44,690 nucleotides of DNA from Candidatus Hydrothermarchaeota archaeon. Lineage in GTDB: Archaea > Hydrothermarchaeota > Hydrothermarchaeia > Hydrothermarchaeales > BMS3B. Below the pieces are notes generated by a model. That model was not told the DNA's origin. It made no database searches and saw nothing but the letters and a program-made list of their open reading frames with translations. The DNA lies in the NCBI GenBank assembly GCA_015521565.1, contig WANX01000112.1, forward strand, positions 1-44,690, in the 5' to 3' direction. Position numbers and translations under genes: made by a program. How positions within the stretch are numbered: position 1 is the stretch's first letter; every line of letters begins with the position of its first letter. Positions 2,613 through 43,394 of this stretch are shown here, one piece after another.

Positions 2613-3146
2613 TTACGGGATAGCAGCTCTGTAGATACTCTCCCCATGCGCATCCATTGCGACGACGAGGGGGCCGAACTTCTCCACCTCCAGCACCCAC
2701 AGCGCCTCGGGAATCCCCAGCTCCAGCCAGTGCACCTCGCGCACGCGCTTTATTGCTCGAGCAGCGAGCGCCCCCGCTCCGCCGGTGAAGGCGAGGTAGG
2801 CGCAGGCGTGCTTTTTTAGAAGCTCTATTGCCGCTTTTGAAAAACCGCCCTTGCCTATTACAAGCCTTGTGGAGAACTTTTCAAGAAGCTGCTCGAGGTA
2901 AGGCTCCATGCGCGCGCTCGTCGTGGGCCCTGCGGAGAGCACCTCCCAGGCGCCGCGCCTTTTCCTCACCAGAGGTCCGCAGTGGTACACCACGTTGAGG
3001 CTTACCGGCACATCCTCCGGCTGCTCTACCGCGCGCCGGTGAGCCCTGTCGCGGGCGGTTACGAGCACGCCGCTCAGGTAGAGCACATCCCCTGCACGAA
3101 GCGAGAGCACATCCTCCTTGCTCACCGGGGTGCGAATCTCCTTCAC
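2613..3146 (-). CDS. Class I fumarate hydratase / tartrate dehydratase, beta subunit
   Basis: 'GDVLYLSGVLVTARDRAHRR', 'YHCGPLV', 'GKGGFSKAAIELLKKH', adjacent to alpha subunit. Confidence 0.9.
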   Translation of the reverse strand: MKEIRTPVSKEDVLSLRAGDVLYLSGVLVTARDRAHRRAVEQPEDVPVSLNVVYHCGPLVRKRRGAWEVLSAGPTTSARMEPYLEQLLEKFSTRLVIGKGGFSKAAIELLKKHACAYLAFTGGAGALAARAIKRVREVHWLELGIPEALWVLEVEKFGPLVVAMDAHGESIYRAAIP

Positions 3147-3976
3147 TGCTCCACCACCCAGGCGTTTCTAACCCTGCGCAGCCTCGCGTAACGGTGCGCC
3201 CAGCACTGCACGCTCACCGCAACGGGCAGCGAGGCTGTGTGGCAGGCGGAGGCGAGAACCTTCACCGCTAAGCACGTTGTATTGCCACCCATTCCCATCG
3301 CTCCTATTCCGAGAGCGTTTATCTCTTCCAGAAGCTCCTCCTCCAGCTCCGCAAGCTCCTCCCGCGGGTTTCTCTCGCTTAGCGGTGCAAGCAGCGCCTC
3401 CTTTGCGAGCATGGCAGCATGCTCCAGAGTGCCGCCTATGCCCACACCCACAATCACAGGCGGACACGGCTTCGCACCGGCGCTGCGCAGCGTTTCGAGC
3501 ACAAAGCGCTTTATCCCGGCGATGCCCTTGCGAGCTGGCAGCATCTGTGCGCGCGAGACGTTCTCGCTTCCGGCGCCTTTCGCGAGGAAGGTGATGCTCT
3601 TCTCATCTCCCGGGAGGAAGTGAATCACCGGCACGCCCTCGCCCGTGTTGTCTCCCGTGTTTCTCCTTGTGAGCGCATCCACGATGCTGGGGCGGAGGGG
3701 AACCTTCAATGTGGCCTCCCTCACCGCCTGTCTTATCTCCTCCGCCACCTCGCCCGGGTTGCTGAAGCCGCGCACAAGGAAGATCGGCACACCGGTGTCC
3801 TGGCAGAGCGGCAGGCTGTGCTCCCTCGCGTAGGCGACGTTCTTTAAAATCGTCTCAAGCTGCAGCTTCGCAAGAGGATTCTCCTCCCTATCAAGAGCGT
3901 GATGCAGCGCCTTCTCAACGTCCTCTGGCAGCGAGGTCACCGCAACGCGTATAAGCTCTACCAGCTCAGAGCGCAT
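3143..3976 (-). CDS. Class I fumarate hydratase / tartrate dehydratase, alpha subunit
   Basis: 'LPLCQDTGVPIFLVRG', 'RRNTGDNTGEGVPVIHF', 'GVGIGGTLEHAAMLAKEAL'. Start placed at MRSELVELIR (cat 3974-3976); upstream ORF extension looks antisense to the next gene. Confidence 0.9.
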   Translation of the reverse strand: MRSELVELIRVAVTSLPEDVEKALHHALDREENPLAKLQLETILKNVAYAREHSLPLCQDTGVPIFLVRGFSNPGEVAEEIRQAVREATLKVPLRPSIVDALTRRNTGDNTGEGVPVIHFLPGDEKSITFLAKGAGSENVSRAQMLPARKGIAGIKRFVLETLRSAGAKPCPPVIVGVGIGGTLEHAAMLAKEALLAPLSERNPREELAELEEELLEEINALGIGAMGMGGNTTCLAVKVLASACHTASLPVAVSVQCWAHRYARLRRVRNAWVVEQ

Positions 3977-4027
3977 CGCAGGTAACTCGAAGCAAGAAAA
4001 TAAAAAGCTTTGGCAGAAGATAAAAGC

Positions 4028-4753
4028 ATGCTTCCTCGTACCACCGTTGCAGGCGAGGTAGAAGTAGAATATCTTCACATTTCTCCGGCGGAGGGGCTGA
4101 GCATCAACGGGATAGACGCGAAAGTGGAGAATGTTGTCCGCGCAGACACGCGCGTTGACCTCGCCTCTGGAGGGAGGAAAGCCTACCTGGTGGAGCACGC
4201 CCTGGGCTGCCTTTATCTCGCCGGTGTAACCTGTGCCTCTGTGAGAGGGCTGAGCAGGAGCTACGATCTCAGCAGGCGCAGCTTTCGCGACGCCCTGCGA
4301 GAGGGACACCCCCCGGCTGCAGTGCTTGGCAACGCCTCGGGTACGCTTGATGAGAAGCTTTACCTTGCGCTGCTGAAGGCGGGCATCAGGAGGCTGCCCG
4401 GCGGGCTGCGCAGGGTTGAGCATGAGGTGGCGCTCAGCATGCGCGAGGGCGAAATCCGCGTCCTGCCCAGCGAAAGCGTTGAGGTGTACGTAGCCGCCGA
4501 GGGTGAGGAGTTCGAGCTGGTGCTGGAAGAGGCGAGCGAGGAGGAGAAGCTCCGCATCGCGAGGGCACCGACGCCCTACCTGAGGGGCTACTCCGCCGAG
4601 ACCCTGCCCCACGTCGCTGGCGACGTGCTCGGCGACATCTTCGCCCTGGGAGGCTTCGGCTCGGGCAGGGTGGAGATTTTCCCGCAGCGAAGGTACCACC
4701 GCCTGACCACAGGTGCGCTGAGGAGGCTTAGCTTTTTATCAGGCGGAGACTAA
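4028..4753 (+). CDS. LpxC-like UDP-3-O-acyl-GlcNAc deacetylase-fold protein, unknown substrate
   Basis: N-term 'RTTVAGEVEVEYLHISPAEGLSINGIDAKVENVVRADTRVDLASGGRKAYLVEHALGCL' (LpxC 'TVEHLLAAL' equivalent), 'LPHVAGDVLGDIFALG' (HxxxDxxGDL motif), 'RYHRLTTGALRRL' (terminal His region). Confidence 0.6.
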   Translation: MLPRTTVAGEVEVEYLHISPAEGLSINGIDAKVENVVRADTRVDLASGGRKAYLVEHALGCLYLAGVTCASVRGLSRSYDLSRRSFRDALREGHPPAAVLGNASGTLDEKLYLALLKAGIRRLPGGLRRVEHEVALSMREGEIRVLPSESVEVYVAAEGEEFELVLEEASEEEKLRIARAPTPYLRGYSAETLPHVAGDVLGDIFALGGFGSGRVEIFPQRRYHRLTTGALRRLSFLSGGD

Positions 4754-4759
4754 ACAGAG

Positions 4760-5704
4760 GTGGAGCTGGCGGGAATGCTCAGACTCAGAGATGATGCAAG
4801 GGTGGTGATGTTCGCGGGCAAGGGCGGCGTTGGCAAGACAACGCTCAGCGCTGCTACTGCTCTGCACTTCGCCGGCGAGGGGCACAGAACCCTTATCCTG
4901 ACTTCAGACCCCGCACCCTCGCTGGGGGACATCTTCGAGCGCAGCGTTGGCGACCGCGTGGTGGAGGTCGCACCTGAGCTTTATGCCCTTGAGCTGAGCT
5001 CAGAGGAGGTGCTGCGCCGCTGGAAGCAGAAGTTCGGTGGCGAGGTGTACGAGGTGCTCTCCTCTCTGGTACCCGTGCAGGAGGAGATTATAGACTACAT
5101 CGGCAGCGCCCCCGGCATAGACGAGGAGTTCATGCTGGACTACATCGCCGGCATCGTGAAGAGCGGAGAGTACGACAGGGTGGTGTGGGACACAGCTCCG
5201 GCGGGGCACACGCTGCGCCTTCTTCGAATGCCAATAATCTTCATAGAGCACCTGGACGAGGCGGCGAGGGTTTACCTGCGCCTGTACTCGGCGATGCAGA
5301 AGATTCGAGATACCCTTGGTCTCAGAAAGCCGAGAAGGGAGATATTTGATATTATCGCTGGCTGGAGAGAGCTCAGCGAGCAGCTCCTGAGCTTTTTAAG
5401 GTCGCCGCAGGTGGAGGTTGTGCCGGTTGCCGCGCCTCAGGGGCTGAGCGTGGCACAGCTCAGGCGTCTTATGCAGGAGCTTGAGAACTTTGGCATCACA
5501 GCTGAGAAAATTGTGGTGAACGGAATAGTGAAACCGGATTGCGAGTTTCACCGGCGCATGGCAGAGGTGCAGAAGAGGTATATAGAAGAGCTCAGACGGA
5601 GCTACCCGGAGGTGGGACTCGTAGAGGTACCTCTCCTGCCTCAGGAAGTAAAAGGTCTGAAAAGCATAAAAAAGATTGAGAGCCTCCTCTTTGACATGCG
5701 GTAG
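4760..5704 (+). CDS. arsA: ArsA/GET3 (TRC40) family ATPase
   Basis: Deviant Walker A 'FAGKGGVGKTTLSAATALHFA', 'SDPAPSLGDIF', 'WDTAPAGHTLRLL'. Confidence 0.92.
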   Translation: MELAGMLRLRDDARVVMFAGKGGVGKTTLSAATALHFAGEGHRTLILTSDPAPSLGDIFERSVGDRVVEVAPELYALELSSEEVLRRWKQKFGGEVYEVLSSLVPVQEEIIDYIGSAPGIDEEFMLDYIAGIVKSGEYDRVVWDTAPAGHTLRLLRMPIIFIEHLDEAARVYLRLYSAMQKIRDTLGLRKPRREIFDIIAGWRELSEQLLSFLRSPQVEVVPVAAPQGLSVAQLRRLMQELENFGITAEKIVVNGIVKPDCEFHRRMAEVQKRYIEELRRSYPEVGLVEVPLLPQEVKGLKSIKKIESLLFDMR

Positions 5705-5779: not shown

Positions 5780-6388
5780 ATGACGAGCAGGGTAACGGGA
5801 ATAATTATTGCGGTTCTGGCAGTGGCTCTGGTGGGGACACTCATCTACATGGGAAATGTCTCCTCCACGTACTCGGAGCAGCTCCAGAAGAAGGAGAAGC
5901 AGATAGCCTCACTGGAGGCAGAACTCAACAAGCTCAAGGCAGAGCTGATAGCTGCAGAGGAGGAGAAGCCAACCACCGGCGAGGCGCAGACTACTGCAGC
6001 TGCTCCCCAGATAAACTGTGCGGACTGCCATGGTGATGTATCAGGCTTCCACGAAATCGGCACGCTGATGAAGATTGACCAGGAGAAGGGTATTGAGCCA
6101 CCCAGAATATGCACCACCTGCCACGGTGACAAGATCCACAAGATACACGAAAGGAAGATCGAAGAAAAGGGTGTGCAGATGTGCCAGACCTGTCACATGA
6201 CCAAGGAGGGAGAGTTCCGCGTGCCGGAGAAGCGTCCCGACGACGTGCTTGTGTGTCAGCTGTGCCACTTTGATGGCAACTACATAAAGATACACAAAGG
6301 AAAGTGTGAACGCTGCCACTACGGAAAGCCAAACGAGATACACCAGCCAGCGCTGCAGAAGAGATACGAAGAGATAGCCTCGCTGTAG
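5780..6388 (+). CDS. Membrane-anchored pentaheme c-type cytochrome
   Basis: N-terminal TM segment, Glu/Lys-rich coiled-coil linker, five CxxCH motifs (CADCH, CTTCH, CQTCH, CQLCH, CERCH). Confidence 0.93.
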   Translation: MTSRVTGIIIAVLAVALVGTLIYMGNVSSTYSEQLQKKEKQIASLEAELNKLKAELIAAEEEKPTTGEAQTTAAAPQINCADCHGDVSGFHEIGTLMKIDQEKGIEPPRICTTCHGDKIHKIHERKIEEKGVQMCQTCHMTKEGEFRVPEKRPDDVLVCQLCHFDGNYIKIHKGKCERCHYGKPNEIHQPALQKRYEEIASL

Positions 6389-12458: not shown

Positions 12459-13601
12459 GTGCAGGAGAGAGGGAGAAGCGAGGAAGAGGTAAGAAGCCTC
12501 CTGCAAGAGGCGAAGAGGCGGGACCTGAGCTACGCCAGCGGGCGCATTCTGAGCTCGATGTGCACCTCGCCTTTAAAGGTGGCCTCCCGAGCGTTCTGCG
12601 ATTTTCTGGAGACCAACCTGGGCGACCCGGGGTTATTCCCGGGCACGCGGGAGCTTGAGGAGCGCGCTGTAAAGGCGATAGCCTCCCTCCTGGGCTTCGC
12701 CGGGGCCAAGGGCTTCATAGTGAGCGGGGGCACGGAGGCGAACATCACCGCGCTCTTCGCCGCGCGGGAGGCGGCAAAGCGCTCAAGGCCTGAGGTTATT
12801 GTGCCAGAGACTGCGCACTTCTCCTTCGAGAAGGCTGCGCGGATGCTCAAATTGAGGCTAATCAAGGCAAAAGTGGGGGAGGACAGCACCGTTCTTGTGA
12901 GCGACGTGGAGCGCAGGATAACCTCGAGCACCGTGGCAGTAGTGGGCATCGCGGGCAACACTGAGTATGGCGCCGTCGATGATATTGCGGCGCTTTCGGA
13001 GCTTGCGCTGGAGCACGGGCTCTACCTGCACGTGGACGCCGCCTTTGGCGGATTTGTGCTGCCCTTCCTCAAGGAGCTGGGCTTCCCAGCAGGGGAGTTC
13101 GACTTCTCTCTGCGAGGGGTGTGCTCCATAACTGTGGACCCCCACAAGATGGGCCTCGCTCCTGTGCCAGCGGGCTGCATACTCTTCCGCGATGCCGGCT
13201 ACCTGGAGCTGCTTCAGGTGGAGTCGCCCTACCTCACGCAGCCCAGGCAGTGCACCCTCCTGGGCACGAGAAGCGGCGCAAGCGCTGCGGCGGTGTTCGC
13301 TGCGCTCACCTTTTTGGGTAAGGAGGGCTACCGCAGGGTGGTGGAGCGCTGCATGCAGGTCACGCTTCACCTGCGAGAGGGGCTTCTCAGCCTCGGGATG
13401 CGTGTGCACGAGCCCTGGATGAACATCCTGGTCTTCGACCACCCGCAGAGGGAGGCGCTTGCCGGCGAGCTGCGCGCTCGAGGCTGGGCGATTTCCAGAA
13501 CGCGCCGCGGGGAGATACGCCTTGTAATAATGCCCCACGTTAAAAAGGAGCACGCGGAGCAGTTTCTGCGCGACGTGGAGGAGGCAGCAGAGGTTCTGTG
13601 A
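12459..13601 (+). CDS. mfnA: PLP-dependent decarboxylase, MfnA-like (tyrosine/aspartate decarboxylase)
   Basis: 'ARLAS...GFIVSGGTEANITALFAAREAAK'-type GGTEAN motif, 'LHVDAAFGGFVLPFL', PLP Lys in 'SITVDPHKMGLAPVPAG'. Confidence 0.88.
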   Translation: MQERGRSEEEVRSLLQEAKRRDLSYASGRILSSMCTSPLKVASRAFCDFLETNLGDPGLFPGTRELEERAVKAIASLLGFAGAKGFIVSGGTEANITALFAAREAAKRSRPEVIVPETAHFSFEKAARMLKLRLIKAKVGEDSTVLVSDVERRITSSTVAVVGIAGNTEYGAVDDIAALSELALEHGLYLHVDAAFGGFVLPFLKELGFPAGEFDFSLRGVCSITVDPHKMGLAPVPAGCILFRDAGYLELLQVESPYLTQPRQCTLLGTRSGASAAAVFAALTFLGKEGYRRVVERCMQVTLHLREGLLSLGMRVHEPWMNILVFDHPQREALAGELRARGWAISRTRRGEIRLVIMPHVKKEHAEQFLRDVEEAAEVL

Positions 13602-29236: not shown

Positions 29237-30322
29237 TCAGGTTATAAGCAGCTCCTCCTTCTCCTGCTCCAGGGCGAGGCGAAGCTCTCTCGCAAGCCGT
29301 CGTCCCATGCTCATTCCGTGGCCGTAGAGGAGATAACTGTAGGGCGAACCGGATATGAAGGGGTTTGTCCCCGCGACAATTCTCGCCGAAATTTCAAAGG
29401 CAATGAACTCCAGCTCGTGAGTCACCATGGTTTCGAGACAGAAGGGGCCCAGCATACCTGGCGGGGCTATCTCCCTCGCCACATCAACCAGGCGGTCGCC
29501 CATCTCCAGCACCCTCGGCAAAAGCGATTCTCTCGCCACGAGGGGTGCGTTGCCTACCACCACGTAGCTGGGCTCTATATAGCTGGTCGTCTGGTCAATG
29601 GCAGGTATCCGGGTGAGTCCGTCGATGTTCGCCTCATACCTGCGGTCGATGCCGAACAGCTCCACCTCGTCGGTGAGGGGGGAGTAGAAGTAGGACAGGT
29701 ACATATTAACCCCCGGTATGTACTCCTGAATTGTGGCCCTCTCCAGGTCCTCTCTGGTAATCCTGCCCTTGCGTATCAGACGCTCTGCCTTGCGCTTGAA
29801 ATCCTTGTAGCTGGCAACGATGAAGTATCCCCGCCCTCCGCGGGCTCCCGGGAACTTAACCAGACAGAGGCGGTCTATGTCGCGGGGGTCATGGGTCTCC
29901 TTGGGCATTTTTATCCCTGCCATGGTGAGCCACCGCCTCTCCAGAGTTCTGTCAGACTCCCAGCGCAGTATGGCACGGTTGCCCAGAAGAGGAATGCGAA
30001 GCCTGTCTTCAATGTTGCCAACCCCGACGTAGGCAATGAGCGAGCCGTGGGGCACCAGCAGGGCGTTGAGCTTCCTCAGCCTCTGAAGCATTTTATCCTC
30101 CAGCAGCTCCTGATAGCTGTCTATGGTTATTATCTCGTCCGCCACCCGGAAGCGGCGGTAAAGCTCCACACGGTCACGCTTGCAGACCACCACACTCCTG
30201 AAGCCCTCCTCCTGGGCTCCCTTGAGTATCTGGAGCGCCGAGTGGCTTCCCAGTGTGGCGATGGCAAGATTGCTCCTGTCATAACTCCTGTAGATTTCCA
30301 GAATTTCCTCTCTATCCAGCAT
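29237..30322 (-). CDS. purP: PurP family (FAICAR synthetase, formate-dependent)
   Basis: 'TLGSHSALQILKGAQEEGFRSVVVCKRDRVELYRRF', 'KFPGARGGRGYFIV', 'MLGPFCLETMVTHELEFIAFEISARIVAGTNPFISGSPYSYLLYG'. Confidence 0.93.
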   Translation of the reverse strand: MLDREEILEIYRSYDRSNLAIATLGSHSALQILKGAQEEGFRSVVVCKRDRVELYRRFRVADEIITIDSYQELLEDKMLQRLRKLNALLVPHGSLIAYVGVGNIEDRLRIPLLGNRAILRWESDRTLERRWLTMAGIKMPKETHDPRDIDRLCLVKFPGARGGRGYFIVASYKDFKRKAERLIRKGRITREDLERATIQEYIPGVNMYLSYFYSPLTDEVELFGIDRRYEANIDGLTRIPAIDQTTSYIEPSYVVVGNAPLVARESLLPRVLEMGDRLVDVAREIAPPGMLGPFCLETMVTHELEFIAFEISARIVAGTNPFISGSPYSYLLYGHGMSMGRRLARELRLALEQEKEELLIT

Positions 30323-30330
30323 GCCCTCAC

Positions 30331-31467
30331 CTACGTCACAATTTCTTCAAGTCTGTCCAGCTTCACCGCCTCGGCGATTTCCATCATCGCCAGGTCGAGG
30401 GGGTCTTCTATGCGACGCCTGTGCTTCAAGCTGAGGATGCGCATCTCCGGCGAAGTGGGACCCATGGCAGGATCTCCGGGCACGCGTGGAGAGACGTCAA
30501 ACACCACAAATTCCAGCCGGCCGTGCTCCTCGGGTGAGTAGGCAATTGCCCCCTGCAGTGCAAAGGGGCCTATCATCTTGGGCGGATACTCCCGCTCCAC
30601 CACCCTGCGGAAGCGGTAGGCTGCATCGTACACCAGGTGCTGTTTGCTCTCCCGCATGGTTACACCGAAGTGCCCAATCTCCTCATTTGTTACCGGGACA
30701 CGGATTTTGAGCTGGTCCCTTGCGGGCAGGTTCAGAAAGCCCTGCAGATTCACCTGGCGCCTGTCCGAGAAGCCCACCAGGTCAAAATCGCCGAAGATGT
30801 CCTCCAGCGCATAGCCGTGAAAGTTGGCATTGAAGCGGGCACCCAGCACATACTCCTCTATCCTCGCCCTGCTCAGCGTCTCCTCGCTTATTATCCCCTG
30901 CTTCAGCAACTCCTCCGCCTGGTGGTAGAAGTCTTCAGGCGAGTCTGCGTAGAAGAAAGCCCTCTCCAGCGGATTGGCGGCCTGCTGCACCTTGACGATG
31001 CAGAGGCGGTCTATGTCTTCGGGGCTTTCAAAGTGCTTTGGCGTGCGTATTCCGGCCTTCTTCAGCAGATAGTACTGTCCCCGTTCGTAGTCGCGCTCCT
31101 CGGCGCGCAGCATAAGGCGGTTGCCGTAGATTGGCACCCTGAACTCCCGCTCTATTCCATCGTAGCCCACATACACTGCGAAGGAGCGGTTGGGTATGAA
31201 GATGGTGCTGAGCTCCAGGAGACGCTCCTGCACCTCCTGGTTGAGCATGTCCCTGAAGCGCTCCACCTCTATTATCTCATCGTAGAGGTGGCGGTTGTAG
31301 CGGGTGTAAAGTTTGTCCCTGCCCTTTTCCACCACTATAGCAGTGCGAAATCCCGCCGCCTTTGCGGCACAGCCTATCTCCTTGGCGGAGTGGGAGCCGA
31401 ATATGCCTATGGTTATGTCCCTGTCATAGCCTGCTGCAATCTTCTGAATTTCTTCCCGCTTCAGCAT
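30331..31467 (-). CDS. PurP paralog
   Basis: 'IGIFGSHSAKEIGCAAKAAGFRTAIVVEKGRDKLYTRY', 'MIGPFALQGAIAYSPEEHGRLEFVVFDVSPRVPGDPAMGPTSPEMRIL'. Confidence 0.9.
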   Translation of the reverse strand: MLKREEIQKIAAGYDRDITIGIFGSHSAKEIGCAAKAAGFRTAIVVEKGRDKLYTRYNRHLYDEIIEVERFRDMLNQEVQERLLELSTIFIPNRSFAVYVGYDGIEREFRVPIYGNRLMLRAEERDYERGQYYLLKKAGIRTPKHFESPEDIDRLCIVKVQQAANPLERAFFYADSPEDFYHQAEELLKQGIISEETLSRARIEEYVLGARFNANFHGYALEDIFGDFDLVGFSDRRQVNLQGFLNLPARDQLKIRVPVTNEEIGHFGVTMRESKQHLVYDAAYRFRRVVEREYPPKMIGPFALQGAIAYSPEEHGRLEFVVFDVSPRVPGDPAMGPTSPEMRILSLKHRRRIEDPLDLAMMEIAEAVKLDRLEEIVT

Positions 31468-31468
31468 A

Positions 31469-31957
31469 CTATGCACCCTTCTTCTTTATCTTTATGATGT
31501 CGCCGATGGTGAGCTCACCCCCCGCTCCTCCCGGAGCAGAGAAGTCCTCTTCCTCCGGCAGCTCCTCCAGGATTTTAATGTCCAGCACCCTTTCGAGCTT
31601 CCTGGCCATTTCCACACTGGGCTTCATCTTTCCTGCTTCAAGGCGCGCTATCACAGAGACCTTCTCGCTTATCTTTCTGCCCAGCTCCTCCTGAGTAAGC
31701 TTTTTCGCCTCTCTGGCACGGCGGATTATGCTGCTGTAGTCTGCCACCACGTCTATCTCAGGAAGCGGTCTGGTGTAGGGACGCTTTTTGCGGGGGCGTG
31801 CAACCCTCCCCGCGGGCTCGCGTTTCGGAACACGGGACCAGGTCTTTGTCTCCCTGCCGAAGCGTGCACACCGGGGACAGGTCTTCATCTCGGTACCCTC
31901 AATTACGGTGGAGACAGGCTTGCCCCAGATTTTCCGCCCGCAAACTTCGCACTCCAT
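31469..31957 (-). CDS. mbf1: Archaeal multiprotein bridging factor MBF1
   Basis: N-terminal zinc ribbon 'MECEVCGRKIWGKPV...CPRCARFG' plus HTH 'IIRRAREAKKLTQEELGRKISEKVSVIARLEAGKMKPSVEMARKLERVLDI'. Confidence 0.95.
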   Translation of the reverse strand: MECEVCGRKIWGKPVSTVIEGTEMKTCPRCARFGRETKTWSRVPKREPAGRVARPRKKRPYTRPLPEIDVVADYSSIIRRAREAKKLTQEELGRKISEKVSVIARLEAGKMKPSVEMARKLERVLDIKILEELPEEEDFSAPGGAGGELTIGDIIKIKKKGA

Positions 31958-32777: not shown

Positions 32778-34028
32778 CTACCCGCGCACCTCCCTGAACT
32801 CCAGCTCCTGCTTCAGCAGCAGAAAGCTGTTCCTGGGCACATCGCGGTACACCACCACACCGGGACCTATCCGGGAGCAGGAGCCTATCTTGCGTCCCGC
32901 ATTTATCATCACATTCAGGCCAAGTTTAACACCGTCACCCACCACTGCGCCCAGTTTGCGTTTTCCTGTATCCACAAGCTCGCCCCTTATCCGCATCTTA
33001 ACACTGGCGCCGTCGAGGCGCAGATTGCCCACCTTTGCACCAGCACCAAAGTTGCAGTTTCTGCCAACTATGGAATCTCCCACATAGCTCAGATGGGATA
33101 TGTGCGTGCTGTCCATGATTATTGAGTTCTTCACCTCAACAGCGTTGCCCACCCTGCAGCGCCTGCCCACGTAGGTGCAGCCGCGGAGGTAGGTGTTGGG
33201 TCCTATGATGCTGTCTCTGCCTATGTACACAGGGCCTTCGATGTAGCTTCCGGACCTTATAACCGCACCCTCCTCCAGATAGACCTTTCCTTTTATGCTC
33301 ACCCGTCCCTCCACCTCGCCGGCTATGCGATGGGGAAGCTCCTCCAAGAGGGCTCTGTTCGCCTCCAGATAGTGCCACGGCGTACCGATGTCCAGCCACC
33401 TGCCGCGCAGCAGAACTCCCCGGATGCCTCTATCCAGGAGCAGCTCCAGAGTTGTGGTTATTTCGTACTCTCCGCGTGGCGATAGCGGAGTGCGCTCAAT
33501 CGCCTCGTACACCTCCGGGGAGAAGACGTAGATGCCGGCGTTTATCAGATTGCTCTCTGGATGAGCCGGCTTCTCCACTATCCTCTCGACTCTGCTGCCC
33601 GTGCCCAGGGTTACCACTCCGTATCCTCGCGCGTCTTCGACCCGGCGCAGCCCCATCGTGGCAGTACCTCTGTGTTCCTTCAAAAGCAGCGCAATATCCC
33701 GGGAACTCGGGACGGTGTCCCCGTTGAGCACCAGGAAATCCTCGTTAAATTTAACCTGGGCTATCGCGTGCGCAGTACCCAGCCGCTGCTTCTGCTCCGC
33801 GTAGCTCAGTTTTACCCCAAGCTCTGAGCCATCGCCAAAATGGGCTTTTATAGCTCCACCCATATAGCCAACGACCAGGGTGATATCCCTTATCCCCGCC
33901 TCCCGCACCGCCTCGATCACGTGCTGCAGCAGCGGCTTTCCTGCGAGGGGTAGCATCACCTTGGGCTGTGTTTCTGTAAGTGGCTCCAGCCTCGTGCCTC
34001 TGCCCGCTGCAAGAATTAAAGCACGCAT
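32778..34028 (-). CDS. Bifunctional sugar-1-phosphate nucleotidylyltransferase/acetyltransferase (GlmU-like)
   Basis: 'ALILAAGRGTRLEPLTETQPKVMLPLAGKPLLQHVI' and C-terminal left-handed beta-helix hexapeptides. Confidence 0.93.
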   Translation of the reverse strand: MRALILAAGRGTRLEPLTETQPKVMLPLAGKPLLQHVIEAVREAGIRDITLVVGYMGGAIKAHFGDGSELGVKLSYAEQKQRLGTAHAIAQVKFNEDFLVLNGDTVPSSRDIALLLKEHRGTATMGLRRVEDARGYGVVTLGTGSRVERIVEKPAHPESNLINAGIYVFSPEVYEAIERTPLSPRGEYEITTTLELLLDRGIRGVLLRGRWLDIGTPWHYLEANRALLEELPHRIAGEVEGRVSIKGKVYLEEGAVIRSGSYIEGPVYIGRDSIIGPNTYLRGCTYVGRRCRVGNAVEVKNSIIMDSTHISHLSYVGDSIVGRNCNFGAGAKVGNLRLDGASVKMRIRGELVDTGKRKLGAVVGDGVKLGLNVMINAGRKIGSCSRIGPGVVVYRDVPRNSFLLLKQELEFREVRG

Positions 34029-34029
34029 C

Positions 34030-35226
34030 TTAAGCACCAAACTTTTCTGTTTTGTTAAGCAGGTCGAGCAGAATGGGCATTAAGTCCAGACCCCTTATCC
34101 TGCCCAGTCCCCCACCGGCGCACGCTCTTTCGCCAAAAGCCACCACGGTGTCTGTTCTGACTTCGGGGCCGGCGATGAGCACAGGTACAACATCGCCGGT
34201 GTGGTCGCCAACACTGCAGGGGGTGGTGTGGTCAGACATCACCACCAGGTAGTTATCCCGTACAAACTCCAGGAACTCGGCCATCATCTCATCTATCGCC
34301 TCTATTACCTCCACCTTCTTTTCCGGAGAGTGGTCGTGACCCGCCTCATCCGCCTCCTTGATGTTCATGAGCAGAAAGTCCACCTCCTCCAGAGCGGCGA
34401 GTGCCTGCTTCGCTCTGGCTGTGTACTCCCTCTCCGCCCGGAGCACCCGCATGCCCGCAAGGCGTGCAATGCCTCTGATAATCGCCGTCGTGGCAATACA
34501 TGCGCCTGTCATACCATACCTGGAGTGGAAGCTCTCAAGGTCAGGCACAACCCCTGCACCTCTGGTGAGCAGATAGTTCGCAGGAGGCAGGTTTTTCCTG
34601 CGGCGTTCCCTGTTTACCTCATGGTCCTTCAGAATCTCATAAGCCCTGGTGGTAAACTCCTCCAGAAGTCTGGCGGTGCGTCTCGCTTCGGGCGTATCCT
34701 CCAGGGGCTCTGCTGGATGCACCTTCACCCCGGTGGTGTGCGGGTCGGTATCCCCAACCCTGTGGCTCAGACCCTCTCCGCGGAACACCAGTGCGCAGCG
34801 GTACGCCAGGGAGGCGAGCTCCACCTCCACACCGGGAAGACGAATGTCGCGCAATGCCTCTATCAAACGGGAGGTGTCCTCTATCCTGCCAGCACGCCTG
34901 TCCATTACAATCAGGTTCTCATCCACAGTGGCAAAATTGCACCTCCAGGCTATGTCGCCCCGGTGAAGCTCAATCCCCATACCGGCAGCTTCGAAGGGAC
35001 CACGCCCGGTGTACACCTCGCAGGGGTCGTAGCCCAGTATTGCGAGGTGTGAGGTATCGCTTCCCGCCCTTATACCGGGAGCCACCGGGTCCACTATGCC
35101 GGTAATACCCCTGGATGCAAGCCTGTCCAGATTTGGGGTGGACGCAGCCTCCAGCGGTGTTTTCCCCCCGAGGGATTTCACAGGTCTGTCTGCGAGACCA
35201 TCACACACCACAACCAGCGCCTTCAT
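34030..35226 (-). CDS. apgM: 2,3-bisphosphoglycerate-independent phosphoglycerate mutase, archaeal type
   Basis: 'VVVCDGLADRPVKSLGGKTPLEAASTPNLDRLASRG', 'GSDTSHLAILGYDP', 'SDHTTPCSVGDHTGDVVPVLI'. Confidence 0.96.
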   Translation of the reverse strand: MKALVVVCDGLADRPVKSLGGKTPLEAASTPNLDRLASRGITGIVDPVAPGIRAGSDTSHLAILGYDPCEVYTGRGPFEAAGMGIELHRGDIAWRCNFATVDENLIVMDRRAGRIEDTSRLIEALRDIRLPGVEVELASLAYRCALVFRGEGLSHRVGDTDPHTTGVKVHPAEPLEDTPEARRTARLLEEFTTRAYEILKDHEVNRERRRKNLPPANYLLTRGAGVVPDLESFHSRYGMTGACIATTAIIRGIARLAGMRVLRAEREYTARAKQALAALEEVDFLLMNIKEADEAGHDHSPEKKVEVIEAIDEMMAEFLEFVRDNYLVVMSDHTTPCSVGDHTGDVVPVLIAGPEVRTDTVVAFGERACAGGGLGRIRGLDLMPILLDLLNKTEKFGA

Positions 35227-41025: not shown

Positions 41026-42288
41026 CTAATTTTTTGCACCTTTCACAAGTTTTGGGAACTGTATGAAGCGGTTCAGCACAACCAGATTGCATAGCACAGC
41101 CAGCAGCAGCAGCACACCAAAAAGCTGATTCGCCACACCGGCGAGAAATATCAGGAACAGCCTCACATCACGCTTCATGAGGTTCTCAGTCAGATTAAGA
41201 AAGGTGAGCCCGAAGAGCTCCGCTCTTGAGCCCGTGTAGCTTATGGAGTAGCTGCCGAGCATTGCAAGACCGCCAACCAGCCAGAGCTCCTCCGGATTGG
41301 TGGCGATTATTCCCAGGAGGATGAGCATATCCGCATACCTGTCCAGGGTGGAGTCGAGAAAGGCACCGTAGGGTGAGGCCACCCCACGCAGACGCGCAAT
41401 CTCACCGTCGCAGCCATCTATAATCGACGAAACCTGGGCCATTATTCCGCCCAGGGCAGCATACCCGTAGGCAAAGAGTCCGCCGGCCAAAGCGCCGAGC
41501 AAAAAGCTGAAGATTGAGATGGCGTTTGGAGTAACAGGCGTATCAACCAGCCTCCGGGAAATCCTGAGGGAAATTCTCCTGTTTATATACCTGGATACAA
41601 ACCCGTCCACAGGCTTTATCAGGCTCCTGAGCAGCATCTCCTCGGCACGCCTGAGTTCCTCTCTCGTGTCCACATCCCACCACACATAGCCGGTGGCGTC
41701 GAATGCGCGCAGCCTGCGTCTTCCGGCCAGGTGCTTCATAACGTCTGTGACTGTAAATCTGCCCTCAAAGCGCCGTGCTGCCTGGAGCACCTCCGGCGTG
41801 CAGTAGAAAACCCCTGTATCCAGTGCGTTGTAGCTGGAAAGCTCCTTTCCCAGGTCAGTTATCCAGCCTTCTGTGTCAACCTGCACCTTGGTCGCCTCCT
41901 CAAGGTTCCGTCCCTTAAGGCTGTAGTCAACACACAGGGTTGTCGTCTCGGGTTTCGACTCCAGGAGCTTTGCCACCATCATGTGGTCGAAGATGTGGTC
42001 GGCCATCACCAGCACAAAGGGTTCGCCTCCAGCAGCTTCCGCACCCTTGAGCAGCGAATATCCTCCCTCTCTCTCAACATCCTCGTTGTGCACAAGCCTG
42101 ACCCTGCCGTTCAGGTGCTCCCTGACGCGCGGGTCACTGTACACCACTATTATCTCCTTTATGCCCGCCTTTCTGAGAGCGTCTATAGCCCTGTCCACGA
42201 GCGCCCTTCCAAGAAGGCGAACAAGGGGTTTGGGGAGGCTCGTGCCAAGCCTCTCCCCCTTTCCAGCGGCCAGAACGACCGCCTTCAT
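41026..42288 (-). CDS. Bifunctional IPCT/DIPPS (CTP:inositol-1-phosphate cytidylyltransferase / di-myo-inositol-phosphate-phosphate synthase)
   Basis: N-terminal nucleotidyltransferase 'VVLAAGKGERLGTSLPKPLVRLLGRAL' fused to CDP-alcohol phosphotransferase 'DGCDGEIARLRGVASPYGAFLDSTLDRYAD'; next to inositol-phosphate synthase. Confidence 0.88.
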   Translation of the reverse strand: MKAVVLAAGKGERLGTSLPKPLVRLLGRALVDRAIDALRKAGIKEIIVVYSDPRVREHLNGRVRLVHNEDVEREGGYSLLKGAEAAGGEPFVLVMADHIFDHMMVAKLLESKPETTTLCVDYSLKGRNLEEATKVQVDTEGWITDLGKELSSYNALDTGVFYCTPEVLQAARRFEGRFTVTDVMKHLAGRRRLRAFDATGYVWWDVDTREELRRAEEMLLRSLIKPVDGFVSRYINRRISLRISRRLVDTPVTPNAISIFSFLLGALAGGLFAYGYAALGGIMAQVSSIIDGCDGEIARLRGVASPYGAFLDSTLDRYADMLILLGIIATNPEELWLVGGLAMLGSYSISYTGSRAELFGLTFLNLTENLMKRDVRLFLIFLAGVANQLFGVLLLLAVLCNLVVLNRFIQFPKLVKGAKN

Positions 42289-42290
42289 CT

Positions 42291-43394
42291 CTACTCCTTC
42301 AGCGCCAGCTCTGGTGCCACCCTGGTAAGGGCGTTCTCCTTTATGAACTCCTCCACCATCTGCCTGGCGACTGCATCTGGATACTGCACCGGCGGGTGCT
42401 TGAAGAAGTAAGCGCTCACACCCTCGAGGGGACCGGCGATGCCATTGTCCAGTGCCAGCTTCGTCGCACGTATCGCGTCGACGGCTACACCGGCGCTGTT
42501 GGGGGAGTCCTCCACGGAGAGGTGCACCTGGATTGTGAGCGGTATGTCGCCGAACTTCCTGCCCTTTACGTAGATGAAGGCCTGCTTGTTGTCGTTCAGG
42601 AAGGGCACGTAGTCACTTGGCCCTATTCGCGTGGGTATGTCGTAGTCCACCACACTGGTCACCGCCTCCGTCTTGCTTATGCGCTTTGATTTGAGCCTGG
42701 ACTCCTGGAGCATGTTCAGGAAGTCGGTGTTGCCGCCGATGTTGAGCTGGTAGGTCTCCTCCACCTTTACGCCCCTGTCCTTGAGCAGCTGCACCAGTGT
42801 GCGGTGGAGTATCGTCGCCCCCACCTGGCTCTTGATGTCGTCGCCCGCAACAGGCAGGCCGGCGTTTGTAAACTTCGCCGCCCACTCCCTGTCGCTGGCT
42901 ATGAATTCTGGGATGCAGTTCACAAAGCCGCAGCCAGCATCTATGGCTGCCTGGGCGAAGTAGCGCGTTGCCCTGGCGCTGCCCACCGGTAAGAAGTTCA
43001 CCAGCACGTCTGCATTAGCCTCCTCCAGCGCCTTGGCCACGTCCACCGGCTTCTGCTTTCTGCTTACAGGTACTGTGCCACGGAGATACCTGCCTATACC
43101 GTCGAGCACAGGTGCCTTGAGCACCTCTACGCCCAGCTCTGGCACGTCGCAGAACCTGGCTGTGCAGTTGGGCTCTGTGAATATCGCCTCGCTCAGGTCC
43201 CTGCCCACTTTGTTGGCGTTAACGTCAAAGGCTGCAACAAACTTTATGTCGCGTATGTGGTAGCCACCGAAGTTCACGTGCATTAATCCCGGTACGAACT
43301 CATCGTCGCGTGCATTTTTGTAGTACTCCACACCCTGCACCAGCGAAGATGCGCAGTTTCCAACACCTGCAATTGCCACTCTCACCTCAGCCAT
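42291..43394 (-). CDS. ino1: Inositol-3-phosphate synthase
   Basis: '[22 protein letters not shown]', '[18 protein letters not shown]', '[12 protein letters not shown]', '[24 protein letters not shown]'. Confidence 0.95.

Follow-up and report, generated by a model that had tools for sequence, protein, structure and literature searches.

A gene at positions 4028..4753 (+ strand) of the 44,690-nucleotide stretch of DNA analysed here (the window) encodes a predicted metallo-amidohydrolase of the LpxC superfamily. We found good support for placing its product in an archaeal branch of this superfamily that keeps the metallo-amidase site intact but has no lipid-binding apparatus; its substrate, we infer, is a small amide. 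LpxC, the UDP-3-O-acyl-N-acetylglucosamine deacetylase (PF03331, TIGR00325), is usually discussed as the lipid A enzyme of Gram-negative bacteria and as an antibiotic target, and our literature search found no paper on archaeal LpxC homologues. The best overall explanation seems to be an archaeal LpxC-superfamily amidohydrolase that acts on a pantothenate-type amide in CoA salvage, a reading for which we judge the balance to be about even.

The open reading frame runs from an ATG at 4028 to a stop codon at 4753, encodes 241 aa, and comes from a 1.7-Mb archaeal MAG; its assignment draws on the reading frame, homologues, fold, and profile comparison. Within Hydrothermarchaeota, 5/5 genomes of one Pyrohabitans-like genus carried the gene, at 72–78% identity, and the 18 other genomes of the phylum did not. 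Relatives 72–73% identical to the window protein occur in Candidatus Pyrohabitans jungbluthii JdFR-16 and JdFR-17. It was under purifying selection, with dN/dS values of 0.19–0.22 between the window gene and three congeners (NG86), and was preceded by a 31-nt element, TAACTCGAAGCAAGAAAATAAAAAGCTTTGG, identical in the five sequences compared. Given its occurrence in all genomes of the genus, these dN/dS values, and the identical upstream element, 4028–4753 is a genuine, conserved gene. Bacterial DNA contamination was rejected, since the locus and its neighbours were the same in five MAGs, the neighbours were of archaeal type, and the sequences belonged to a single archaeal clade. We also searched for carriage of the gene on plasmids and obtained no match.

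Homology to LpxC was faint when the window protein was searched alone: its Pfam score for PF03331 was sub-threshold (14.2 bits, with the cut-off at 27; E = 0.03), the NCBIfam lpxC model did not match it, and a PDB search returned Aquifex LpxC at E = 0.11. Across Hydrothermarchaeota, the Pfam LpxC model applied at family level gave no matches, missing even the known gene, and is therefore unfit for mapping the archaeal family. Because the single-sequence signal was weak, we collected an alignment of 14 archaeal sequences from the Pyrohabitans-like genus and an Asgard-type phylum, and the resulting profile retrieved Aquifex LpxC from the PDB at E = 2.3e-7. Aligned by hhalign with a profile built from seven bacterial LpxC sequences, the archaeal profile reached 98% probability (E = 3.1e-13) over 222 collinear columns, while five column-shuffled profiles gave at most 0.6%, and these together with three unrelated profiles at most 0.8%. 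The negative shuffled controls, and the invariance of the motif residues in all 14 archaeal homologues, the most distant of them only 24% identical, led us to reject chance motif resemblance. An AlphaFold2 model built from the 14-sequence alignment had a mean pLDDT of 94.9 and a pTM of 0.92, and in a Foldseek comparison of this model with the PDB the best 50 matches listed were all LpxC (top E = 3.1e-14, TMq 0.73). The predicted fold is thus well supported as the duplicated, two-domain LpxC type, and homology of the window protein to LpxC is virtually certain. The original prediction, made from the window sequence, had recognised an LpxC-type architecture in an archaeal reading frame of about 241 aa, shorter than LpxC, and had named a departure from the duplicated fold as one outcome that would count against it; both the architecture and the fold held up in these comparisons, and the protein has 241 aa versus 305 in LpxC.

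Relatives were found in two rounds. A profile of the genus sequences detected two carrier genomes in a second archaeal phylum, evidently Asgard, and a second profile extended this to 9/228 genomes of that phylum, distributed over five families; no further carriers appeared among 394 archaeal genomes sampled from 253 genera. MAG completeness was 78–98%, and absences from single genomes carry little weight at these values. One carrier, G031, is probably Odinarchaeum. When the seven bacterial LpxC sequences were included in a tree, the archaeal proteins formed one deep clade (support 100/100), within which the Pyrohabitans group was nested among Asgard sequences with moderate support (89/78) and on a long branch. 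This placement is compatible with a transfer into Pyrohabitans from an Asgard lineage, although it is not proof of such an event. The Pyrohabitans and Odin sequences sat on long branches of 1.7 changes per site, and their function could therefore have shifted.

Despite identities of only 24–32% across the two phyla, the metal-binding and catalytic residues were invariant. The archaeal alignment had 20 invariant columns, which included E56, H57, H195, D199, D203, and H224, each conserved in 14/14 sequences; the original prediction was right about the metal ligands and catalytic residues. When residues were paired with LpxC through hhalign, E56 and H57 (4193..4198, + strand), in the VEH motif, correspond to the LpxC general base E78 and Zn ligand H79; the segment HVAGDVLGD (4610..4636, +), running from H195-V196 through D199 to D203, holds the counterparts of the Zn ligands H238 and D242 and of D246, the partner of H265; and H224 (4697..4699, +), within YHRLT, corresponds to the catalytic H265. 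The three Zn ligands H79, H238, and D242 thus aligned one-to-one with H57, H195, and D199, and from this alignment the His/Asp residues would be expected to cluster in the fold, the other point on which the original prediction could have failed. T182 (4571..4573, +), the counterpart of the oxyanion contact T191, was Thr or Ser in the archaeal family. From this conservation, and from the roles assigned to the LpxC residues (PMC6286764; PMC13333357), metal binding and activity can be predicted, and the window protein is quite probably an active metallo-amidase, in agreement with the amidase or deacetylase activity suggested originally.

What the archaeal family shares with LpxC is therefore the duplicated fold, the Zn ligands, and the counterparts of E78, H265, D246, and T191, whereas the parts that handle the lipid substrate are missing. 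A single LpxC stretch of approximately 33 residues, insertion II, which forms the acyl-chain tunnel (PMC13333357), was unmatched in the archaeal family and had no corresponding elements in the AlphaFold2 model. The position of LpxC Lys239, which contacts the substrate pyrophosphate and sugar (PMC6286764), was Val or Ala in 14/14 archaeal sequences (V196 in the window protein). In the alignment, the GLHTG motif of LpxC was not found in the archaeal family, and Asp105 of the LpxC DGS motif was not retained in the window protein, where the position reads N-A-S-G-T. Conversely, the family has gained a segment of about 20 residues following the strand after the VEH helix, a gap in LpxC, that carries the invariant arginines R83 and R87 (4274..4288, +), possibly contacts for a substrate phosphate or carboxylate. 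As for the survey of archaeal distribution and partners proposed with the original prediction, the family extends over two phyla, and LpxD did not appear above the family cut-off in any of the 14 carrier genomes, the window genome included, with positive controls.

The archaeal protein has no acyl tunnel and no lysine to bind the pyrophosphate, and the carriers have no LpxD partner above the cut-off; we therefore conclude with high confidence that it is not a lipid A enzyme, and its substrate should be smaller and non-lipid. A true LpxC of bacterial origin that makes lipid A-like molecules would account for the homology; this explanation is nonetheless close to refuted, given the missing LpxD, insertion II, and Lys239, the failure of the Pfam model to match anything in the phylum at family level, and the deep separation of the archaeal sequences from the seven bacterial LpxC sampled. 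An N-deacetylase of an unacylated amino sugar or nucleotide-sugar, for example in the synthesis of an archaeal glycolipid or S-layer glycan, has more in its favour, as all deacetylase catalytic residues are retained and UDP-sugar deacetylases were the closest characterised relatives, both in the PDB profile search and among the best 50 Foldseek matches listed. However, Lys239 is replaced by Val or Ala throughout, GLHTG and insertion II are gone, and no glycosyltransferase or sugar-nucleotide genes were recognised in the neighbourhoods examined, which leaves this alternative unlikely. The glycolipid or sugar-nucleotide substrate first suggested for the gene thus lost support with the acyl tunnel, Lys239, and LpxD, and the gene contexts in Asgard archaea point instead to pantothenate and CoA.

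In 9/9 Asgard carriers, an M20-like gene (approximately 350–430 aa) was adjacent to the LpxC-like gene or one gene away; no such gene was found in the four Pyrohabitans genomes searched. The Asgard partner resembles the M20 family (ArgE/DapE/LysK) in weak matches to the dimerisation domain (M20_dimer, 1.8e-5) and to DapE/ArgE/LysK models, but differs in that its N-terminal catalytic half was unrecognised and the LysK motif DHTPYEH, around the last metal-site His, was replaced (one alignment). Degenerate M20 genes of this kind, apparently without the M20 metal site, were located at L028 3764–5047, L029 8528–9754, and L014 7596–8642, among others. The degenerate protein is possibly a pseudoenzyme partner of the LpxC-like protein. 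The LpxC-like protein could by analogy be a catalytically dead or regulatory ligand binder like this neighbour, which has no recognisable M20 metal-site motifs; yet we regard this as very unlikely, considering that the Zn ligands, general base, acid, and supporting Asp of the LpxC-like family, residues usually lost first in dead enzymes, do not vary between the two archaeal phyla, even at 24–32% identity.

Several Asgard LpxC-like genes were embedded among genes of the archaeal PoK/PPS CoA pathway. In the probable Odinarchaeum, the gene order was M20-like, ECF transporter S component, LpxC-like, kinase, hexapeptide protein, and CoaBC, with the kinase matching the GHMP pantoate kinase type at 7e-52 and CoaBC at 4e-59. 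In G562, the order was M20-like, LpxC-like, and kinase, with the LpxC-like gene abutting the kinase. In family f153, PPS was divergent from the M20-like/LpxC-like pair in G543 and G544, while PanE, MfnA, kinase, and PPS clustered with the pair within ~10 kb in G547. Such linkage occurred in three of five Asgard families (f19, f159, and f153), although the CoA genes were singled out after viewing the neighbourhoods and we claim no formal significance for the association. It was not seen in families f139 and f156, where the pair lay away from PoK/PPS, nor in Pyrohabitans.

PPS, PanB, and PanC gave no match in the two Odin-type genomes and G562, which is consistent with a salvage pathway that leads into the kinase and CoaBC there. 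Family f153 has PanB, PanE, MfnA, PoK, and PPS and thus no obvious need for salvage, and PanB presence did not separate carriers from non-carriers. GHMP enzymes of the pantoate kinase type were observed at L014 5035–5961 and L027 4715–5638, in genomes without a PPS, PanB, or PanC match, and are candidate pantothenate kinases like that of Picrophilus. The Odin kinase scored 176.5 bits against the Thermoplasmatales model versus 143.8 against the methanogen model. The Thermoplasmatales have no PoK/PPS homologues, and one of them, Picrophilus, is reported to possess a pantothenate kinase (PMC6650551); the Odin GHMP kinase may therefore likewise act on pantothenate. The PoK/PPS pathway as described includes no LpxC-like gene (PMC6650551), and the Odin-type genomes and G562 depart from it further in having no PPS match.

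Taken together, we propose that the LpxC-like family takes part in CoA salvage by cleaving an amide in a compound of the pantothenate type, either pantothenate itself or one resembling pantetheine. As in LpxC, H57, H195, and D199 would coordinate a metal ion, presumably Zn2+; E56 would activate the nucleophilic water, H224 would serve as general acid under the influence of D203, and T182 would stabilise the oxyanion; R83 and R87 might hold the smaller, non-lipid substrate. In Asgard archaea, the LpxC-like protein would work alongside the degenerate M20-like protein and supply the GHMP pantoate/pantothenate kinase with substrate. Cleavage of pantothenate would be sensible only in PPS-bearing species, and cleavage of pantetheine mainly where the kinase accepts pantothenate. 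For the Asgards, we consider a CoA/pantothenate role to have an even chance of being correct; the same role in Pyrohabitans is a more doubtful proposition, and the exact amide as proposed is unlikely to be the right one. The known pantetheinase of vertebrates, vanin, belongs to the Cys enzymes with a nitrilase fold, and its likeness to the proposed activity, as a pantetheinase/pantothenate amidohydrolase, lies in reaction type, namely amide hydrolysis in a pantothenate compound; the analogy is functional only, and no homology is claimed.

A deeply separate archaeal branch in which the catalytic site is kept and the lipid-binding parts are lost suggests that this fold serves other amides. Tentatively, it could constitute an unrecognised archaeal family in which an LpxC fold serves CoA metabolism and, together with a pseudo-M20 partner, pantothenate-type vitamin salvage in Asgards without PPS, PanB, and PanC. 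The LpxC-like gene is thereby a testable candidate for filling the CoA-supply gap in Odinarchaeum-type Asgards, in which those three enzymes gave no match, and, if the proposal is true, Asgard archaea using such salvage might be sensitive to LpxC-type hydroxamate inhibitors. Moreover, studies of mechanism could use the archaeal family as a naturally minimal LpxC.

In Pyrohabitans, the LpxC-like gene was not near PoK/PPS genes (G000, contig 38), and its constant neighbour was fumarase. The class I fumarase alpha subunit (3146..3976, − strand) was divergent from it in 5/5 genomes of the genus, followed in the window by the beta/C-terminal subunit (2616..3146, −), and the short divergent intergenic region (3977..4027) contains an A/T-rich TATA-like element with the identical 31-nt core. 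A repurposed function tied to fumarase could be read from this arrangement, from the identical core, and from the long Pyrohabitans branch: expressed from a divergent promoter common to both, the protein might, for instance, clear an amide-linked compound of C4-dicarboxylate metabolism, either an inhibitor or a metabolite. Shared promoters are, however, common in compact archaeal genomes, and fumarase was beside the LpxC-like gene in no Asgard locus compared; we therefore consider such a function quite improbable. Downstream, an ArsA/GET3-type ATPase (4760..5704, +) lies 3′ of the LpxC-like gene, but it is no conserved operon partner, since an opposite-strand gene, CobB/CbiA-like by inspection, separates the two in 3/5 genomes. 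MfnA (window 12459–13601) was considered as a CoA link and dropped, as no MfnA was found in G006 over the ~18 kb that follow the gene. PanB was missing in nearly all Hydrothermarchaeota genomes checked (G000–G021), and the Pyrohabitans genomes keep PoK, most of them also PPS.

Several other features of the window were observed. Adjoining the fumarase genes, a convergent MjaI-type restriction endonuclease and DNA methylase (715–2366) had no counterpart in the equivalent regions of the other Pyrohabitans genomes that we compared, and the pair is therefore possibly a recent insertion. A small CXXCH-rich, cytochrome c7-like protein with an N-terminal membrane anchor (5780–6388) was conserved beside ArsA in the genus. 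At 29237–31476, two DUF1246/DUF1297 proteins, whose domains are of the archaeal PurP type, occur in tandem adjoining TatC. Finally, a nucleotidyltransferase/hexapeptide protein adjoining a phosphomutase-superfamily enzyme (32778–35226) and a myo-inositol-1-phosphate synthase adjoining a fused nucleotidyl/CDP-alcohol phosphotransferase (41026–43394) probably function in the synthesis of an inositol phospholipid or solute.
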